From: a virus
IMG/VR virus record: IMGVR_UViG_3300027759_000280
Location: 1 to 32,233 of that record
Length of the DNA stretch: 32,233 nt
Reading direction: 5' to 3' (one strand)
Shown here piece after piece: positions 3,671-23,585 of this stretch. Numbering within the stretch: the stretch's first letter is position 1; each line of letters starts with the position of its first letter. A program made the translations under genes and the position numbers. The notes below the pieces were generated by a model, which saw only the letters and a list, made by a program, of their open reading frames with translations, had not been told where the DNA came from and made no database searches.

Positions 3671-5149
3671 ATGTACATACCTTTAAAGTTACCCCCAGGT
3701 GTTTTCCGAAATGGTACTGAGTACCAGGCAGCAGGCCGATGGTATGACGCAAACCTAGTGCGCTGGTATGAGGGAACACTGCGCCCCATCAATGGATGGC
3801 GCACCAGGTCAAGCTCACAGATGTCAGGCTCATGCCGAGGCATCATCACTTGGCGCGACAATGCAAATGATCGCTGGATTGCTGCTGGTACGCACACCAA
3901 GCTCTATGTGATGAACGCGCTTGGGACACTCAAAGACATCACGCCAACGGGCTTCACCACAGGCTACGCAAGCTCTACAGTGCTGACCGGCTATGGCTAT
4001 AACGCCTATGGCATTTTTGCCTATGGTGTAGCAAGGCCAGACACTGGAACACCCATTGCAGCCACCACTTGGTCACTAGACAATTGGGGTGAATACTTGG
4101 TGGCTTGCTCTTCATGGGATGGTAAGATTTATGAGTGGCAATTGGGCTTTTCAACGCCAACAAAAGCGGCAGCCATCACCAATGCACCAGTGAGCAATAA
4201 GGCGGTTTTAGTCACCCAAGAGCGCATTATCTTTGCCCTTGGTGCTGGTGGTAATTCACGCAAGGTGCAATGGTGCGACCAGGAGAACAATACCCAATGG
4301 ACACCGGCAGGCGACAACCTTGCAGGCGACTATGAATTAGCAACGCCTGGATCACTTATGGCCGGCAAGCGGGTCAAGGGTGTGAATCTATTGTTTACCG
4401 ATGTGGATGTCCACACGGCCCAGTATGTTGGCGCTCCTTTTGTCTATGGCTTTGAAAAGGCTGCAAGTGGCTGCGGTCTGATTTCGGCCCAAGCAGTGGC
4501 GGCTATTGATACGGCAGCCATTTGGATGAGCAAGTCTGGCTTTTGGATTTATGACGGCTATGTCAAGCCACTGCCAAGCGATGTGTCAGATTACATTTTT
4601 GAAAATATCAACTTTGCGCAAGCCTCCAAGATTTATGCGGTCCATGTCAGCAAGTTTGGTGAAATCTGGTGGTTTTACCCAAGTGCATCGAGCAATGAAA
4701 ATGACTCTTATGTCACTTTTAACTACCGCGAAAATCATTGGAACATTGGCACATTGGCCCGTCTTGCTGGGGTTGATGCTGGGGTGTTTACTTATCCCTT
4801 GATGGTGTCTAGCGATGGCTACATCTACGAGCATGAGGTCGGTTTTGCTTATGACAGCGCCAGCCTTTATGCTGAGTCTGGACCAATCCAATTGGGCAAT
4901 GGCGATAATATTATGAGCATTCGCCAAGTCATCCCCGATGAACAAACTTTGGGTGAGGCTGTGGTTTCATTTAAAACCCGCAATTACCCAACCGGCAGTC
5001 AATCTTCATTTGGCCCATATACGGCAGCAAACCCAACTTCAGTGAGGTTTTCTGGCCGACAAGTTAACATGAAGGTGACTGGTAACACTTTGGCCGACTG
5101 GCGCATTGGGGTGATGAGACTTGATGCTGTGCCAGCTGGAAAGCGATGA
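3671..5149 (+). CDS. Tail hub / DNA-stabilisation protein, P22 gp10-like candidate
   Basis: 492 residues, beta-rich throughout, with repeated aromatic-Gly blocks such as W-R-D-N-A-N-D-R-W-I-A-A-G-T and I-W-W-F-Y-P spaced like blades of a beta-propeller. The opening (PLKLPPGVFRNGTEYQAAGRWYD) and a following N-G-W-R-T-R-S resemble the start of P22 gp10-type packaged-DNA stabilisation proteins, which close the portal and join it to the tail. Length is close to that family (about 470). This is a remembered resemblance, not an alignment. Its TGA overlaps the next ATG (5146-5149). Confidence 0.6.
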   Translation: MYIPLKLPPGVFRNGTEYQAAGRWYDANLVRWYEGTLRPINGWRTRSSSQMSGSCRGIITWRDNANDRWIAAGTHTKLYVMNALGTLKDITPTGFTTGYASSTVLTGYGYNAYGIFAYGVARPDTGTPIAATTWSLDNWGEYLVACSSWDGKIYEWQLGFSTPTKAAAITNAPVSNKAVLVTQERIIFALGAGGNSRKVQWCDQENNTQWTPAGDNLAGDYELATPGSLMAGKRVKGVNLLFTDVDVHTAQYVGAPFVYGFEKAASGCGLISAQAVAAIDTAAIWMSKSGFWIYDGYVKPLPSDVSDYIFENINFAQASKIYAVHVSKFGEIWWFYPSASSNENDSYVTFNYRENHWNIGTLARLAGVDAGVFTYPLMVSSDGYIYEHEVGFAYDSASLYAESGPIQLGNGDNIMSIRQVIPDEQTLGEAVVSFKTRNYPTGSQSSFGPYTAANPTSVRFSGRQVNMKVTGNTLADWRIGVMRLDAVPAGKR

Positions 5150-5514
5150 GTGACCAAGAACATTTGGAAAGGTTGCGCCACCATGTGGAGGCTGCCTTAG
5201 AATACTCTGGAGGCACACATAATTTTGATGACATTGCCGAGATGGTCGAAAAGCAGCAATTGCAGCTGTGGCCGGCCAAAGACTCGGTGGTGTTGACAGA
5301 GATCATTGTCTACCCACAACTGAAGAATTTGCATTACTTCTTGGCTGGTGGCGACCTAGATGAACTCTCTCGGATGAGACCATTGATCGAATCCTGGGGC
5401 AAATCACTTGGATGCACCAGGGTGACTTTGGCAGGCCGAAGAGGCTGGCAAAAGTCATTTTTGAAAGACGAAGGGTACAGTCCACAATGGTCTGTATTGG
5501 CAAAGAAACTTTAG
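5146..5514 (+). CDS. GNAT-like phage protein
   Basis: 122 residues. The core runs I-I-V-Y-P-Q-L-K-N-L-H-Y-F-L-A-G-G-D, then L-I-E-S-W-G-K-S-L-G-C-T-R-V-T-L-A-G-R-R-G-W, then a strand near the C-terminus. This order (strand, acidic patch, helix, GRRGW, G-Y) matches a widespread short phage family with an acetyltransferase-like fold that sits among tail genes. Whether it acetylates anything is unknown, because the acetyl-CoA loop is poorly defined. It is coupled to the hub gene by ATGA. Confidence 0.65.
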   Translation: MSDQEHLERLRHHVEAALEYSGGTHNFDDIAEMVEKQQLQLWPAKDSVVLTEIIVYPQLKNLHYFLAGGDLDELSRMRPLIESWGKSLGCTRVTLAGRRGWQKSFLKDEGYSPQWSVLAKKL

Positions 5515-13190: not shown

Positions 13191-13707
13191 TCAAGATTCT
13201 CCATGCTGTTGCTGCCACTTCTGGAACTTGGCCGTTCCCGCAGGCCTTAACTCTGTCCACCCTTGAGGCCAGCCCATCATCCATTCCGCAAAGTTTGGAT
13301 GTAAATTCACTCCATTTATCAAGCGATAAAAGTCTGTCAGCTTCGCCCCAAATTCTGTCCCCGTTGTTTGACTGGTCCGGATGATCCTTTTGTTTCGATA
13401 TTCGATCCCTTTTGTGTTCCCGTTGTATTGGTCTGAAGCCGTGGGGGTAGGCAAATATCCAAATTCTTTCTCGTCTATGGGGTGCGCCAACGAAGTCTGC
13501 TCCCATAATTCCCCATTTCGCATCAAACCCCATTTCGGAAAGGTCTCCAAGCACTCTATCGAGTCCTCGATTAACGAGCATTGAGCTGTTTTCCACAAAG
13601 ACGTAACGGGGTCGAACTTCGCCAACCACCCGTGCCATTTCTCGCCACATTCCTGATCTTTCTCCATCAAGGCCTGCCCCCCCCCCGCAACTGAAATGTC
13701 TTGGCAT
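13180..13707 (-). CDS. C5-cytosine methyltransferase, C-terminal part in the -1 frame
   Basis: The coordinates are an open frame from an internal ATG at 13707; the methyltransferase-like part begins at the G10 run. It supplies what the upstream fragment lacks: A-G-L-D-G-E-R-S-G after the run, motif VI V-F-V-E-N-S, motif VIII A-P-H-R-R-E-R-I-W, and near the end S-R-V-D-R-V-K-A-C-G-N-G-Q-V-P (motifs IX-X). A -1 slip, or an eleventh G, joins the halves as S-V-A-G-G-G-A-G-L with no residue gained or lost compared with the usual phage sequence. The joined enzyme would have about 250 residues, with a short target-recognition region between motifs VIII and IX. It could instead be translated separately as a second subunit. 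Confidence 0.75.
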   Translation of the reverse strand: MPRHFSCGGGAGLDGERSGMWREMARVVGEVRPRYVFVENSSMLVNRGLDRVLGDLSEMGFDAKWGIMGADFVGAPHRRERIWIFAYPHGFRPIQREHKRDRISKQKDHPDQSNNGDRIWGEADRLLSLDKWSEFTSKLCGMDDGLASRVDRVKACGNGQVPEVAATAWRILSEQ

Positions 13708-13934
13708 GGAAAGCCGCCAGATACGACATCAACAATGCCTCGCCATGGGTGGCCGTCAAAGGTTTGTACGTCATCCCAAATCGGGAAAGGCGGGAGAAGG
13801 CCGTCATTTTGTCTGGCGCACAATACGCTTGCTGGATAGGCTTCCCATTCGACTGCGCAGACTGTTCGCCATCCAAGGAGCTTGCCTCCAAGTATTCCTC
13901 CACCAGCGCCTGCGAAAAGAGCCAGCTCATTCAT
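13191..13934 (-). CDS. C5-cytosine methyltransferase, N-terminal catalytic part, continuing in zero frame past a G10 run
   Basis: From ATG 13934 (AAGG six bases upstream; ATG 13940 is an alternative). The start M-N-E-L-A-L is followed by motif I F-A-G-A-G-G-G (SAM binding, residues 7-13) and motif IV G-G-F-P-C-Q-D with catalytic Cys77. At the G10 run (13686-13677) the canonical protein continues in the -1 frame (see 13180-13707). The zero frame nevertheless stays open to TGA 13193-13191, giving 247 residues. That tail reads S-L-W-K-T-A-Q-C-S-L, F-P-K-W-G-L-M-R-N-G-E-L, L-P-T-P-T-A-S-D and W-M-M-G-W-P-Q-G-W-T. This pattern resembles, from memory, C-terminal segments of other phage methylases. 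It lacks the ENV and QxRxR motifs, so this frame alone should not be a complete enzyme. Confidence 0.75.
   Translation of the reverse strand: MNELALFAGAGGGILGGKLLGWRTVCAVEWEAYPASVLCARQNDGLLPPFPIWDDVQTFDGHPWRGIVDVVSGGFPCQDISVAGGGQALMEKDQECGEKWHGWLAKFDPVTSLWKTAQCSLIEDSIECLETFPKWGLMRNGELWEQTSLAHPIDEKEFGYLPTPTASDQYNGNTKGIEYRNKRIIRTSQTTGTEFGAKLTDFYRLINGVNLHPNFAEWMMGWPQGWTELRPAGTAKFQKWQQQHGES
13677..13686 (-). repeat. Ten-G homopolymer at the methyltransferase frame junction
   Basis: Ten consecutive C on the plus strand, read as G10 in the gene. It is the longest mononucleotide G/C run I saw in the window (next is C8 at 21334-21341). It lies exactly where the coding frame must change. G11 would restore the canonical frame. 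Confidence 0.95.
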
Positions 13935-14202
13935 CACCATCCTTATATTTAGCCAGCGCAGTCACTTCAATGTGGTCCACCAAGCCTTGCAAAATAATGT
14001 GAGCAATGTCCACATTAGTGTCAAAGATATATGCGTTATTAAGGGTCATTGATTCATCAAGATCAGGCTCATAAGGTGCAAAGTATGAGTCAACTGACCC
14101 CTTTTCGGCTGGGCAGTATTCCAAGAAGCACACCAGATCGACATCTTCAATGGTGCAGACAAACTCAAACAAGTCTTTTGGGCAGCTGGGTGTCGGGTTC
14201 AT
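13927..14202 (-). CDS. 91-residue acidic protein, unknown function
   Basis: Strong Shine-Dalgarno GGAGGGG just upstream of ATG 14202. Acidic product with four cysteines (C7, C16, C25, C29), M-N-P-T-P-S-C-P-K-D-L-F-E-F-V at the start and V-D-I-A-H-I-I-L-Q-G-L-V-D-H-I-E late. The stop overlaps the methyltransferase start (13934), so the two are probably translated together. No family recognised. Being small, acidic and host-interaction-like in position, it could be an inhibitor protein, but nothing shows this directly. Confidence 0.7.
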   Translation of the reverse strand: MNPTPSCPKDLFEFVCTIEDVDLVCFLEYCPAEKGSVDSYFAPYEPDLDESMTLNNAYIFDTNVDIAHIILQGLVDHIEVTALAKYKDGDE

Positions 14203-17573: not shown

Positions 17574-17624
17574 AAAGTCAATCTCATGGCAACCTCAATG
17601 AAACCCCTAACTAAAGGAATTTCA

Positions 17625-19754
17625 GTGTCAACTATAACTGAAACACCCCTGCCAGATACATTTTCACAGTCGCAATCTGTCGCCTGCAAGATTGGCACAG
17701 TCGCCCCAGATGCAGTCTTCTGCACCTTTGCCCTGCAAGGCTCTAAGAAAATCCCCTACAAGCGATCTGGCCAAGGTGTGGCACGGGATACAGACCCGAC
17801 AGACCTCTACAACGCTGAAGACATTTGGGCCATGGAGTCATGCCCTCATGGCCAATATCTTGGCCTTGTTCAGCAGCGCCCGATCATCTCCGCATCAGGA
17901 AACTATTTGGTTTGCCTCGATGTGGATATGAAGCACGCTAGTGGCCCAACCAATGTGGCCATCCAGCGCATGGCCAAATTTGTCAAGGCCAACAAGATGC
18001 TGACCGAGGTCTCTGTCTCAGGCCGTGGCCGCCATGTGTTCCTTTGGGTCCAACCACCAAAAGAATCTGACCAGGTGCTGCCGAAATACAAGCTCGGTGG
18101 TGGCCAAGAGCTTGAAGTATTTGGCCTGCCAAACAGTGCCGGCAAGTCAGTGCTACTTAGTGGCAATCAATTGGTCGGTGAATTTCAAGAGGCAGTCGAT
18201 TTGCATGAGCTGCTGCAAGACTGGGGCATCATCGAGCAGCACCAACTGCAAGAGCCAAAGCCTGCTACCCCGAGCCAATCATTTGACTTCACCCAATTAG
18301 GCTCAAGGCTTGATGACAGCGATCTTGATCGCGCTATCAAGGCTTTGCACCATATTTCCCCAGACTGCGACTATGACCAGTGGATTGAGCTTGGCCAAGC
18401 GCTGCACACCGAATTCGGAGAAGCGGGTCTTGGCCCATGGATGACATGGTCTATGGCTGGCCAAAAGTTTGCCGGCACAAAAGACATTGAAATCCACTGG
18501 AAGAGCTTTCACCAGGGCAAAGGTGTGGGGCTTGGCACACTCTATAAACACGCCAAAGATTGTGGCTGGGAGCCGCCAACCAAACAGGCCGAGCGCAAAT
18601 CAGCGGTGGAAGACTTTGCAGCAGTCATCAATGCGCCAGTGGCCACAGACACACTAGACCCATCATGGCCAGAGCTTGCCTTAGACCTGACAAAGCTCAA
18701 TCCCATTGATTATCTGATCGAGGGATTCATGGCCCATTCGTTTTTCATCTTGGCCGGTCAGCCTGGTGTGGGTAAGACCACAGCAGTCTTATCCATGTGC
18801 ATGGTCATGGCAGGGTTTTCAGTAGATGGCTGCGAGATTCACGCTAAAAAGAAACGCAAGTCAATAATCGTGACAGAAGACAGTGACCAGATAATCAGAA
18901 CACTATTTGCATATTCAAAGCATTACAAGATAAATAACTTAAACGACTGGTTTGTGGTTATTGATGCCAGAAGGTCAAATGTCAAAGATTTATTAAGGCT
19001 TGCCCATAATATTGAGCGCCACACTGTTAACGGCATTAAACCATTATTGGTTCTGGACACGGCCAATGCGACCATGGATATTGACAACGAGAATGACAAC
19101 TCAGAAGTGGGTAGCTTTATTGCCGCCATCAAGCAGACCATATTCATACAGCAAAAAGCCCCAGTCTGTATCCTGACCCACACAAACAAAACAATTTCCC
19201 GCCAAGACTCCGATGCCATGGCCCGTGGTGCATCAGCATTCACAGGCGATGCAACCCTTACAGGCGTGCTTTTCATGGATGAGGATAACCAGCGCTACCT
19301 AAAGCTGACCAAAACGCGCTATGAGCCTCAATTCAGAGAAATCAAATTCGACTCAATCACATTTCCAGAACTGGTCACCACAGCAGCTGGTGATCTGCAA
19401 GAGATTATTTGTCGGGTGGCCATTCCAGCCATGTCGTCAGAACAAGACCGAATGGCCGCCAAGCAATCAATCCAAGACAGTGCCAAAGAGCAGCGCATCC
19501 AAGACAAGTGCGATGAGGTTTGCATGGTGGTCCAGTCCATCATCAACGATAAAGGCAGCGTCATTATGCGCAGAGGACCAGGCAGGCCAGTTGTGCCAAA
19601 AGAACTCCAAAACGCCTACCAACTGGATTGGACCGAGATATTCAGCAGCGTTAAAGGCAGTGATGCAGGCTATATCCGCAAGCACATTGGCACGGCCATC
19701 TTCACCAGATTCGCACCAAACGAGCCACTGTCAGGCTGGGTTAAGTTGGCATGA
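17625..19754 (+). CDS. Bifunctional primase-helicase (AEP primase, PriCT-2, RecA-like helicase)
   Basis: I prefer GTG 17625, which has AAAGGA six bases upstream. ATG 17586 lacks a ribosome site and would add 13 residues (numbering below is from that ATG). The primase part shows L-D-V-D (Asp112, Asp114), S-G-R-G-R-H (His150) and E-V-F-G, the three AEP motifs. A PriCT-2 domain follows at about 245-328 (A-I-K-A-L-H-H-I-S-P-D, W-x-x-W-S, T-L-Y-K-H-A-K). The helicase part has Walker A G-Q-P-G-V-G-K-T-T (391-399), Walker B L-L-V-L-D-T (487-492) and I-L-T-H-T-N-K. The C-terminal 150 residues could bind the iterons directly downstream, as P4 alpha protein does at its origin (inference). Confidence 0.9.
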   Translation: MSTITETPLPDTFSQSQSVACKIGTVAPDAVFCTFALQGSKKIPYKRSGQGVARDTDPTDLYNAEDIWAMESCPHGQYLGLVQQRPIISASGNYLVCLDVDMKHASGPTNVAIQRMAKFVKANKMLTEVSVSGRGRHVFLWVQPPKESDQVLPKYKLGGGQELEVFGLPNSAGKSVLLSGNQLVGEFQEAVDLHELLQDWGIIEQHQLQEPKPATPSQSFDFTQLGSRLDDSDLDRAIKALHHISPDCDYDQWIELGQALHTEFGEAGLGPWMTWSMAGQKFAGTKDIEIHWKSFHQGKGVGLGTLYKHAKDCGWEPPTKQAERKSAVEDFAAVINAPVATDTLDPSWPELALDLTKLNPIDYLIEGFMAHSFFILAGQPGVGKTTAVLSMCMVMAGFSVDGCEIHAKKKRKSIIVTEDSDQIIRTLFAYSKHYKINNLNDWFVVIDARRSNVKDLLRLAHNIERHTVNGIKPLLVLDTANATMDIDNENDNSEVGSFIAAIKQTIFIQQKAPVCILTHTNKTISRQDSDAMARGASAFTGDATLTGVLFMDEDNQRYLKLTKTRYEPQFREIKFDSITFPELVTTAAGDLQEIICRVAIPAMSSEQDRMAAKQSIQDSAKEQRIQDKCDEVCMVVQSIINDKGSVIMRRGPGRPVVPKELQNAYQLDWTEIFSSVKGSDAGYIRKHIGTAIFTRFAPNEPLSGWVKLA

Positions 19755-19789
19755 CCAGTCTAATGCGGAAAGGCGGAACTAATACGGAA

Positions 19790-19811
19790 CTAATGCGGAA
19801 TTCCGTATTAG
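19790..19811. repeat. 22-bp palindrome formed by two head-to-head iterons
   Basis: CTAATGCGGAA (19790-19800) meets TTCCGTATTAG (19801-19811). It is perfect except for one G-T pair. This is a possible dimer-binding or cruciform site. Confidence 0.85.
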
Positions 19812-19828
19812 ACAATGGCAGGGATTGT

Positions 19829-19861
19829 TGGATAAGTGGGGGTCGTAGACCCACTTATCCA
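19829..19861. repeat. 12-bp perfect inverted repeat with 9-base loop overlapping a DnaA box
   Basis: TGGATAAGTGGG (19829-19840) and CCCACTTATCCA (19850-19861). The right arm runs into a perfect DnaA box (19855-19863). A stable hairpin in single-stranded DNA, possibly a priming or helicase-loading site. Confidence 0.85.
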
Positions 19862-19891
19862 CAGACCAGTCTCGGCTTGGAAGGTACTTCA

Positions 19892-19944
19892 GTTTCTAAT
19901 GCGGAAAGGCGGAAAATTCCTTAAGGGCTTTCCGTATTAGAAAC
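19892..19944. repeat. 17-bp inverted repeat built from iterons
   Basis: Left arm 19892-19908 (GTTTCTAATGCGGAAAG) pairs with right arm 19928-19944 with a single G-T mismatch and a 19-base spacer. Both arms contain an iteron, so the stem and the iterons are the same sequence. Confidence 0.85.
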
Positions 19945-19976
19945 GAGCATTTGATGGTCCAACACAAAGGAAAGTT

Positions 19977-20297
19977 ATGCACAGGTTATCCACAAATTTA
20001 GATTTCATCGAAGATGAGCGCGTTTTCTGCCATCAATGCGCTAATGCGGAAATGGTAGAGCAGCGCCAGTCAATGCCAGCCGAGCAGATGGAAAGACACC
20101 GAAAGGTCAATGCAAAACCACTGCAATGGATGTTTGACCAAGCAAAGATAAAAGGTGGATGGGCAACTGTTACATGGTCCGAACACCAGTGCGCCAAAAC
20201 CGGACTGGCTGCATTCCCGACTGATGTCAAACACCGATGCCATCTATTCCAAGCCAAAGCCTCGGCAGTAGAATCCGAAGCATGGTGGTTGACTTAA
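19977..20297 (+). CDS. 106-residue Cys/His-containing protein, unknown
   Basis: ATG 19977 with GGAAAG just upstream. The product has C-H-Q-C-A-N-A-E near residue 18, M-E-R-H-R-K-V-N-A-K, W-A-T-V-T-W-S-E-H-Q-C and H-R-C-H-L-F. Paired Cys/His residues suggest metal binding. Two DnaA-box sequences (19975-19983, 19986-19994) cover its first codons and a further iteron sits at 20042-20051. Expression may therefore respond to origin occupancy. Overlaps the nuclease gene by 16 bases. Confidence 0.65.
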   Translation: MHRLSTNLDFIEDERVFCHQCANAEMVEQRQSMPAEQMERHRKVNAKPLQWMFDQAKIKGGWATVTWSEHQCAKTGLAAFPTDVKHRCHLFQAKASAVESEAWWLT

Positions 20298-20650
20298 AAC
20301 GCAAACGAAAAAGCATTGAACACATTGACCAGGTCAAAGTGGTGCAACATTTCAGAGCGTTTTATCCTGACATCATCATTGCAGCAATACCCAATGGAGG
20401 CGATAGAACGGCCTCAGAGCGCGTTAAATTGCACAATGAAGGGGTTTTGTCAGGAATGCCAGACCTTTGCGTCTTAGAGCCTAAAAACGGCTTTCATGCG
20501 TTATTTGTGGAAATGAAGACCAAGGCCGGTGTGGTCTCAGCCAAACAAAGTGCAGTAAGTTTGCAGTTAAATGCAAAAGGATATCAAGCAGTGGTCGCCA
20601 GATCAGCTGCCGAAGCAATCAAATCAATCGAGGATTATCTGAATGGCTGA
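20282..20650 (+). CDS. VRR-NUC domain nuclease
   Basis: From ATG 20282 (122 residues); an in-frame ATG at 20237 would add 15 residues that overlap the previous gene. The sequence includes I-I-A-A-I-P-N-G-G, E-G-V-L-S-G-M-P-D-L-C-V-L and F-V-E-M-K-T-K-A-G, then S-A-K-Q-S-A-V-S-L. These form the VRR-NUC active site: Asp in M-P-D, Glu and Lys in E-M-K, and Gln in K-Q. Standalone VRR-NUC proteins in phages act as structure-specific nucleases during replication or packaging. Overlaps the following gene by 8 bases. Confidence 0.85.
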   Translation: MVVDLKRKRKSIEHIDQVKVVQHFRAFYPDIIIAAIPNGGDRTASERVKLHNEGVLSGMPDLCVLEPKNGFHALFVEMKTKAGVVSAKQSAVSLQLNAKGYQAVVARSAAEAIKSIEDYLNG

Positions 20651-21149
20651 ACCAAAACGTAAAGCACAAACACTTGCAGAAGTGGCCGACAACATTGCCG
20701 AAAGGCAAATGGGTCTCAAAGAGCAAGCAGCTCTCGCACGCAAAGAGGCCACAGATGTCAACAAGAAGATTCACGCTGCTGGTGGCGAAATTACCATACT
20801 AGACAGACTCTCCGAAGGTGAGACCATTCTTAGCTTGGCAAGGTCGTTGAAGGTAAGCCACACGGCTTTTTATGATTGGATCGATAGAGGGGGCGAGGCG
20901 CGGGCTTCTGCCCTTGCGCGTGCGCGGGCGCGTGGTGGCCGAAGTTTAGCAGAGGAAACTATCGAAATTGCAGACAGTGCAAGCCCTCAAGAGGCGCAAG
21001 TGGCCAAGCTGAGAGTGGACACAAGGCGCTGGCTGGCCAGTAAGCAAGCGCCAGATGAGTATGGTGATAAGCAGCAGCCACTGGTCAATATCGACCTTGG
21101 CAGCCTGGCACTTGATGCATTACGCAAGCGCAGCGTGACAATCGAGTAA
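20643..21149 (+). CDS. terS: Terminase small subunit-like DNA-binding protein
   Basis: 168 residues. A charged N-terminal coiled-coil-like region (1-50) is followed by an HTH: I-L-D-R-L-S-E-G-E-T-I-L-S-L-A-R-S-L, then K-V-S-H-T-A-F-Y-D-W-I. After that comes E-E-T-I-E-I-A-D-S-A, then K-L-R-V-D-T-R-R-W-L-A-S-K and E-Y-G-D-K, a block typical of phage small terminases of this type. It would recognise the packaging site and pass DNA to the large subunit at 22179. Five small genes and the second origin-like region separate the two. Confidence 0.75.
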   Translation: MAEPKRKAQTLAEVADNIAERQMGLKEQAALARKEATDVNKKIHAAGGEITILDRLSEGETILSLARSLKVSHTAFYDWIDRGGEARASALARARARGGRSLAEETIEIADSASPQEAQVAKLRVDTRRWLASKQAPDEYGDKQQPLVNIDLGSLALDALRKRSVTIE

Positions 21150-21465
21150 ACGAATACCGAAGCATTCAGCTACTTTATACAACGACCATTATGTTAAGTG
21201 GATAACTAGATATCCACAGAATTAAGTGCATAAAAGTATTACAAGCCTACTTATGCACAGGAATCTGTGGATAAGGTTAGCCAAAATCCGTGGATAACCC
21301 AGCTGCTGGCCAGCTGGCGGTCGGTGGCCGCGACCCCCCCCTTGGCCGGCTTTGGCGGGGCGACTGTGGCGGCACTAAACACCTACTAAAAAAATTTTTT
21401 AAAAAAATACCAAATAAGTTAAATTGTGCAAAAATGTCAACTCCATCAACTAACACCTTAAACCT
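21150..21465. other. Candidate origin 2: DnaA-box cluster beside an AT-rich tract
   Basis: A 316-base gap with no convincing gene. Six DnaA-box-like sites lie within 101 bases: perfect TTATGCACA at 21251-21259 and TGTGGATAA (reverse) at 21266-21274; eight of nine at 21197-21205, 21210-21218, 21225-21233 and 21289-21297. Next is a GC-rich stretch (21300-21375, with C8 and a GCTGGCCAGC palindrome). It is followed by a homopolymeric AT tract, A7-T6-A7 at 21388-21407, that could unwind. This is the layout of a DnaA-driven origin or of an IHF/DnaA-regulated packaging region. No strong promoter seen. Confidence 0.6.
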
Positions 21466-21982: not shown

Positions 21983-22182
21983 CTGATTTATTGACAGCGC
22001 TGCATTTGTCGGTGGTGATGTTGGACCTAAAGATTCGGATGATGGAGGCTATTGATGAGGGGCGGTTTGACTTGGCGATGACCTACTATTTGCTGATACT
22101 GGTCAGAACTGATGAGTTGGAGGCGCATAAATGGGCGATGAGTCCCAAGGCTTGGGCCATCTATGAGACTATTCATCCATGA
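21979..22182 (+). CDS. 67-residue helical protein upstream of terminase
   Basis: Coupled by ATGA on both sides (21979-21982, 22179-22182). Helical, with M-T-D-L-L-T-A-L-H-L-S-V-V-M-L-D-L-K-I-R-M-M-E-A at the start and D-L-A-M-T-Y-Y-L-L-I-L later. Unrecognised. Coupling to terL suggests a role in packaging or dosage with it. Confidence 0.6.
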   Translation: MTDLLTALHLSVVMLDLKIRMMEAIDEGRFDLAMTYYLLILVRTDELEAHKWAMSPKAWAIYETIHP

Positions 22183-23585
22183 AAGAAAATGTCTTTGCTC
22201 AGTGGGTGGACCGGTATCAGCCTGATCCTGTTTTGTTTGTGCAAGAGGTTTTGGGGGTTGACCCTGACCCATGGCAAGTGAAGTTTCTTGGTGCGATAGC
22301 GAGAGGGGATCGCAAGATATCTGTCAGGTCTGGCCACGGGGTGGGGAAAAGTACAGCAAGCAGCTGGGCCATGCTCTGGTACTTTATGACCAGGAGTCCG
22401 GTCAAGGTGGTGGTGACTGCACCGACAAGCAGCCAGCTTTATGACGCGATGTTTGCAGAGCTAAAGAGGTGGATCAATGCGATGCCACTGCCTTTGCAGG
22501 GGTTGCTGACTGTCAAGCAAGAGAGGATTGAATTTAATGCTGCACCGACTGAGATGTTTATTTCGGCTAGGACCAGCAGGGCAGAGCAGCCGGAGGCTTT
22601 GCAGGGAATTCACAGTGAGAATGTGATGCTGGTGGCCGATGAGGCTTCTGGTGTGCCGGAGCAAGTGTTCGAGGCTGCGGCTGGCTCAATGTCTGGCCAT
22701 AACGCGGTGACGTTGCTTTTGGGTAATCCGGTGAGAAGTAGTGGGTTTTTCTATGACACGCATACACGCCTGGCTGATGAGTGGACCACATTCCAAGTGG
22801 CCTGCACTGACTCGCCACGGGTATCAGATGAGTACGTCAAAGAGATGGCCATGCGGTATGGGGAAGAGAGCAACGTCTACCGGATCAGGGTGATCGGGGA
22901 GTTTCCCAAGGGCGATGATGACACTGTGATTGCCATGGATTTGCTAGAAAGTGCGGTGAATCGGGATGTCGCGCCAAGTGAGTATGCGCCCATGCTATGG
23001 GGCTTGGATGTGGCGCGGTTTGGATCGGATAGGTCAGCACTATGCAAACGCCAAGGAAATGCAGTGACTGAGGCGATCAGGACATGGAAAAATTTGGACT
23101 TGATGCAGCTGACTGGTGCGGTGGTGGCCGAGTATCAGGCGCTGCCACCAAGCCAGCAGCCCAAAGAGATTCTGGTGGATAGCATTGGATTAGGCGCTGG
23201 GGTGGTGGACCGGCTGCGAGAGCTGGGCCTGCCGGCCAGAGGGATCAATGTCAGTGAATCACCGGCCATGGGCGGGACTTACAGGAATCTAAAAGCAGAA
23301 CTTTGGTACAGGGCAAGAGCTTGGCTCGAAGCTCGGGACTGCAAGATGCCGCGGGATGAGGTCTTGATTGCTGAACTGGCCACAGTGCGGTATTCATTCA
23401 CCAGCAACGGCAAGATCGCCATCGAGGGGAAAGATGAGATCAAGAGGAGAGGGCTGCCAAGCCCAGACAAGGCCGATGCCTTTGTCCTGACATTTGCCAG
23501 CGATGCGGTGGCGGGAATGTATGGGTCAGCAGGCTCAAGCAAATGGAGCCAACCCCTGCGCAGAAACTTGTCGCGGGTTGCATAA
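22179..23585 (+). CDS. terL: Terminase large subunit
   Basis: 468 residues. The ATPase domain has Walker A S-G-H-G-V-G-K-S-T (51-59) and Walker B V-M-L-V-A-D-E-A (149-156), with coupling motif L-L-L-G-N-P (179-184). The RNase H-like nuclease has Asp277 (G-L-D-V-A-R-F-G-S-D), Asp334 (I-L-V-D-S-I-G-L-G-A) and Asp430/Asp433 (P-D-K-A-D-A-F). It packages DNA into the procapsid through the portal encoded at 24714. Length and motif order match P22/headful-type large terminases, but the packaging mode cannot be read from this alone. Confidence 0.95.
   Translation: MKENVFAQWVDRYQPDPVLFVQEVLGVDPDPWQVKFLGAIARGDRKISVRSGHGVGKSTASSWAMLWYFMTRSPVKVVVTAPTSSQLYDAMFAELKRWINAMPLPLQGLLTVKQERIEFNAAPTEMFISARTSRAEQPEALQGIHSENVMLVADEASGVPEQVFEAAAGSMSGHNAVTLLLGNPVRSSGFFYDTHTRLADEWTTFQVACTDSPRVSDEYVKEMAMRYGEESNVYRIRVIGEFPKGDDDTVIAMDLLESAVNRDVAPSEYAPMLWGLDVARFGSDRSALCKRQGNAVTEAIRTWKNLDLMQLTGAVVAEYQALPPSQQPKEILVDSIGLGAGVVDRLRELGLPARGINVSESPAMGGTYRNLKAELWYRARAWLEARDCKMPRDEVLIAELATVRYSFTSNGKIAIEGKDEIKRRGLPSPDKADAFVLTFASDAVAGMYGSAGSSKWSQPLRRNLSRVA

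Follow-up and report, generated by a model that had tools for sequence, protein, structure and literature searches.

A rigidly spaced DnaA-box module beside the small terminase gene of uncultured phages, a possible auxiliary platform for host DnaA

Why should a phage carry a dense array of DnaA boxes between its two packaging genes? The window analyzed here, that is, the whole 32,233-base record IMGVR_UViG_3300027759_000280 of IMG/VR, comes from an uncultured phage and displays such an array between terS, which encodes an Sf6-like small terminase (20643-21149, plus strand; phrog_1482, PF20901), and terL (22179-23585, plus strand). The original prediction, made from the letters of the window, saw here the layout of a bacterial origin, by which a phage encoding no polymerase might hijack host DnaA. 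Its individual elements are all present. Six 9-mers with at most one mismatch to TTATNCACA, two of them perfect, lie at 21197-21297, which is exactly 101 bases. As would be expected of an oriC, this density is above chance, since no 101-base stretch contained more than four in any of 300 simulations of the whole 32-kb window under a second-order Markov model. The boxes are followed by a GC-rich block (77% GC at 21298-21376) and by an A7-T6-A7 tract (21388-21407, no strand), and an earlier candidate origin with three perfect boxes (19855-19994) does lie 1.2 kb upstream. In 18 genomes, perfect TTATNCACA boxes are confined almost wholly to these two clusters. A search for RNA families and tRNAs found none, and the phage and plasmid records searched for similar DNA gave no meaningful match.

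To see what is maintained in this stretch, we fetched 80 TerS relatives, nearly all of which keep the box positions, and measured the geometry on 71 loci. What emerges is a rigid module, CCATTATGTTAAGT-N10-box-N32-box-N6-inverted box, with identical spacing in 71/71 relatives. It starts with the conserved 14-mer CCATTATGTTAAGT (21186-21199, plus strand; CATAAT on its minus strand), found as CCATTATGT[TA]AAGT exactly N10 from box B in all 71 matched relatives. Box B itself (ATATCCACA, 21210-21218, plus strand) reads TTATCCACA in 49 of the 71. Box C (TTATGCACA, 21251-21259, plus strand) follows at 41 bp from box B, and the inverted box D (TTATCCACA, 21266-21274, minus strand) at 56 bp, a constant 15 bp from C; neither distance varies in any of the 71 loci. 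In 90 of the 94 distinct copies of the module, D is followed after 23 or 24 bp by a weaker fourth box, E (TTATCCACG, 21289-21297, minus strand). The two remaining 9-mers are less constant: box A (TTATCCACT, 21197-21205, minus strand) is kept by just part of the family, and the box-like TTATGCACT (21225-21233, minus strand) is missing from most relatives. The 32-nt spacers of the module fall into three unrelated types, with identity down to 28% across the 71 loci, and the preserved phasing over such diverged spacers indicates an ordered protein complex. From the sequence of the boxes, we infer that the bound protein is host DnaA.

How widely is the module distributed? A TerL tree places the phages of the window's own family that carry the module in a single group (94/99), beside the group of L034, which has no module. 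The boxes are thus rigidly kept in the clade of the window and missing from a sister clade whose TerL is 92% identical, which divides the answer to whether close relatives have lost them. Elsewhere, L406 keeps the 14-mer core with a decayed array, and L354 and L395-L397 have no boxes at either place. Since the module is absent in L034 and a few phages have boxes at neither place, DnaA is not universally needed. By searching for the inverted box pair, we came upon a second phage group (L475 and L482) with the module in full. Its TerL is only 30-31% identical and its primase of another type, Toprim/AAA_25; there, too, the module comes after terS and is followed by a GC block and then an AT-rich tract. 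L530, whose terminase differs, provides a third context: here the module is immediately 5' of terS, flipped in orientation relative to it, and the array has neither GC block nor AT tract behind it. The 14-mer, too, occurs in these two unrelated groups. That the module is found in two orientations relative to terS argues against a direction-bound role in packaging or transcription. A near-palindromic TTATCCACAG-N4-CTGTGGATAA pair, lacking the 14-mer, is present in other viral contigs, L476, L477, L485, L490, L491, L492, L493, L495, and L499; several of the viral contigs with this pair are near-identical copies.

Does the stretch form a single oriC-like unit? Judged by its conservation, it is a composite, in which DnaA module, C/G block, and AT tract are conserved separately. 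Neither L034 nor the complete genome MW202879 has the array, yet GC block, AT tract, and promoter-like sequence are all present in both. Boxes, GC-rich DNA, and AT-rich DNA do occur in the same order as in the basal unwinding system of oriC, but in the published search for that system DnaA box and trios are separated by at most about 16 bp (PMC8287927). In the window, ~90 bp separate the last box from the AT tract, far past this maximum; moreover, the distance between array and AT tract ranges from 173 to 218 bp in the 71 loci. The bacterial origin layout is therefore not borne out as a unit, and the local GC-skew minimum lies instead near 19.7 kb. As for the AT tract, a promoter-flanking role fits better than a phased unwinding element, because its distance to the array varies and promoter-like sequence follows it in most relatives: a σ70-like promoter matching at least 9/12 positions is found downstream in 47 of 78 loci, compared with 14% of shuffles. 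In the window itself this rightward promoter is weak (8/12). A mechanical scan also picked out a possible leftward σ70-like promoter, TGGATA-17-CATAAT (21188-21216, minus strand), built from box B and the 14-mer. TGGATA is found at the same spacing in 76 of 77 relatives; the hexamers match 9/12, and the scan gave three such sites vs. 1.1 in shuffles.

The GC block tells a different part of the story. It carries a C-run/G-run block, GACCCCCCCC-N-GGCGGGGCGACTGTGGCGGCACTAAACACCTAC (21332-21386, plus strand), which we propose as a terminase recognition or cut site. Its motif, C6-9-N13-17-GGGG followed by CGRC, persists down to TerL identities of ~50% and is kept in many phages without DnaA boxes. 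Each family genome has a single copy of the C6+N13-17GGGG form, invariably located in the terS-terL interval; in C72C1, too, the motif occurs solely there. Sinorhizobium phage phiM5, whose TerL is 53% identical, likewise has a C-run, 13-17 nt, and a G-run upstream of terL, and there the motif occurs solely in the two copies of the 357-bp terminal repeat annotated in GenBank, just before their right ends. Going by this annotation, a relative thus has the motif where its genome physically ends. In contrast to the window, phiM5 has no DnaA-box array at this place. In the simplest reading, the C/G block probably acts as a signal for terminase cutting or packaging, and the earlier suggestion of a packaging start between terS and terL gains support for the GC block, although not for the boxes. 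The termini of LUZ24 do not share the motif; for phiEco32, the comparison covered the first 3.5 kb only. The ends of family contigs cluster inside terS, in a 0.3-kb zone (20.8-21.1 kb) with no fixed base, and are thus no proof of a terminus; we read them as a break zone rather than as physical genome ends. Contigs break preferentially in terS (20780-21210) from both directions, for which a GC-rich stretch, strain variation, and genome ends are candidate causes. In the module-less L034 (2284 onward) and L255 (966-1634, minus strand), the terS-terL interval also holds a serine recombinase gene, located after GC block and AT tract.

If the second cluster is not an obvious origin, where might replication start? 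The first candidate is more likely to be the main origin. Directly after a 722-aa gene (17586-19754, plus strand) lie seven CTAATRCGGAA iterons together with the three perfect DnaA boxes (19760-20051, no strand). The product of this gene, a probable initiator, combines a primase-polymerase-like N terminus having invariant DxD, SxxxxH, and E residues with PriCT-2 and AAA_25 helicase domains. The best fold match of its structural model, which is of low confidence (pLDDT 64), is the primase-polymerase of phage NrS-1 (E 4.7e-9), from which it differs in also carrying PriCT-2 and the AAA_25 helicase. The gene thus probably encodes a polymerase-like primase, which makes it doubtful that the window lacks a polymerase, as had been stated; a family-A polymerase was found in none of the family records searched. 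Iterons and primase type change together in at least six lineages, with different iterons accompanying primases of ~74%, 48%, and 44% identity as well as unrelated ones. The repeats therefore lie beside the initiator gene and appear specific to it, as in an iteron-type origin, and we infer that the primase binds them. Side by side, the PrimPol-like/AAA_25, Prim-Pol/VapE, and Toprim/AAA_25 types give the appearance of a modular swap of origin specificity. In relatives, the iterons are at 5104-5409 (L012), 5140-5333 (L047), 5097-5284 (L075), 5094-5352 (L036), and 5085-5351 (L025), and in reverse complement at about 4650-5000 in L475.

It is this exchange together with the adjacent primase-polymerase, and the local GC-skew minimum at the iterons rather than at the second cluster, that point to the iterons as the main origin. 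Measured from the 14-mer, the minimum is 1459-1681 bp upstream in most genomes, the differences in skew being modest; it falls at the iterons also in genomes without cluster-1 boxes (G011 and G014) and without the module (G770 and MW202879, positions anchored on the C block). Some genomes have their minimum near -3.1 kb, and group 2 has no such local minimum. Plasmid origins of the iteron type that also have accessory DnaA boxes, such as oriR of plasmid P1, likewise place initiator-specific repeats and a few strong boxes beside the initiator gene. Unlike these, the phages have a second array 1.3 kb off, with a rigid geometry of its own, which does not change when iterons and primase are swapped.

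How do the two clusters relate to each other and to the host? Perfect boxes in clusters 1 and 2 number 3/3 in 35 of 67 family loci, 3/1 in 12, 0/3 in nine, 3/2 in eight, 2/3 in two, and 3/0 in one, and 0/0 never occurs. All nine loci without cluster 1 have the full module, and where their primase can be compared it is divergent or unrelated. Strict complementarity of the clusters, which holds in these 67 loci, fails in outgroups and was dropped. Searches of the window, of 18 relatives, and of the other module-bearing groups turned up no DnaA C-terminal domain, and we accordingly rejected a phage-encoded DnaA. Together with the strong conservation of the module, this leaves the hijacking of host DnaA plausible as a predicted interaction. 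L542 (MW202483.1, 31477-31671), a relative of group 2 with no module at terS-terL, codes for a protein with a DnaA C-terminal domain as well as for a family-A polymerase. Among 369 Gammaproteobacteria and 398 Pseudomonadota genomes, both sparse samples, we found no matching module, which led us to set aside a copied host oriC; a search for the host via prophages found TerL on just two distant MAG contigs.

What, then, might the module do? The reading that we favor, tentatively and at somewhat less than even probability, is that it serves as an auxiliary platform for host DnaA near an iteron origin, the iterons being the primary origin and the C/G block a terminase signal. Distribution, neighborhood, and orientation independence are what favor such a platform. 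Host DnaA would bind the module as an ordered complex, perhaps joined by another host factor at the 14-mer; the phage primase-polymerase/helicase would open the iteron region; and DnaA on the module would draw host helicase and polymerase III near the iteron origin, 1.3 kb upstream, partly duplicating the DnaA boxes within that origin as an auxiliary initiation platform. The terminase would read the C/G block as a genome-end or packaging signal. The 1.3-kb separation, long for a single origin, counts against this reading, as do the module-less sister clade and the phages with boxes at neither place, the modest and not uniform skew signal, and the lack of a similar module in the bacterial genomes sampled. 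A stand-alone oriC-like origin, in which DnaA on the boxes melts the AT tract, would agree with the box density, with the order of array, GC block, and AT-rich tract in the unrelated group 2, and with the full array in phages lacking cluster-1 boxes. We nevertheless consider it improbable in view of the variable and excessive distance to the AT tract described above, of GC block and AT tract outlasting the boxes while L530 has an array without either, and of the skew minimum at the iterons.

DnaA-timed transcription, with box B covering the -35 of the leftward promoter or the array tuning the rightward one after the AT tract, is unlikely, if less so than the other rivals. The leftward elements are invariant parts of the module, the promoter-like sequence after the AT tract is enriched over shuffles, and DnaA regulates genes in E. 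coli too (PMC11317965). Yet leftward transcription would, in groups 1 and 2, run antisense to terS, the leftward hexamers match just 9/12, with three such sites in the scan vs. 1.1 in shuffles, the rightward promoter of the window is weak, and L406 retains the 14-mer core with the -35 region gone. Improbable, in our judgment, is a DnaA control element, be it a sink that titrates host DnaA or, as with datA or DARS, a site that resets the nucleotide state of DnaA, restraining or feeding host initiation while infection proceeds. The DnaA boxes of datA surround an IHF site at set distances. Rigid geometry is a feature of datA and DARS (PMC4585315, PMC5742627), and perfect boxes are concentrated in two clusters per genome. 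The intergenic, head-to-head C/D pair resembles the high-affinity boxes I and II of the DARS1/DARS2 core in E. coli, where the third box is on the strand of the second. However, our reading of the E. coli K-12 genome gives start-to-start spacings of 14 and 12 bp in DARS1 and DARS2, with box I inverted, whereas the module has 15 bp for the pair and 23/24 bp (10 in some) to the next same-strand box. On spacing, the module is thus no DARS core, even if it could work similarly, and simple titration would call for no fixed distances between boxes. Least of all do we expect the array to be part of the packaging signal, with DnaA or the array shaping DNA for terminase beside the cut site. It adjoins terS in all three phage groups, box B and the C run are mostly 119-130 bp apart, and the phiM5 terminal repeats stop just past the same C/G motif, but the C/G block is conserved in many box-less phages, the orientation relative to terS is reversed in L530, and contigs end in terS (20.8-21.1 kb) at no single base.

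Lytic-type phages are mostly thought to carry their own initiators. A rigid DnaA module that stays constant in unrelated phages despite the exchange of primase and iterons would offer a defined 110-bp handle on phage use of the host initiator, and the once-per-genome C/G motif a direct prediction of where packaging cuts these uncultured genomes. A bolder proposal, which we regard as a long shot, is that the 14-mer and its four phased boxes make up a phage cassette for host-DnaA control that is transferable and represents a new type of DnaA-ordering element, distinct from oriC, datA, and DARS. Both DnaA and a second host factor would read it, and unrelated phages would have placed it beside terS to link the initiation cycle of the host with replication, late expression, or packaging. 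Elsewhere in the window, a cytosine methyltransferase-like gene (13191-13940, minus strand) contains a C10 run (13677-13686), possibly a phase-variable tract.
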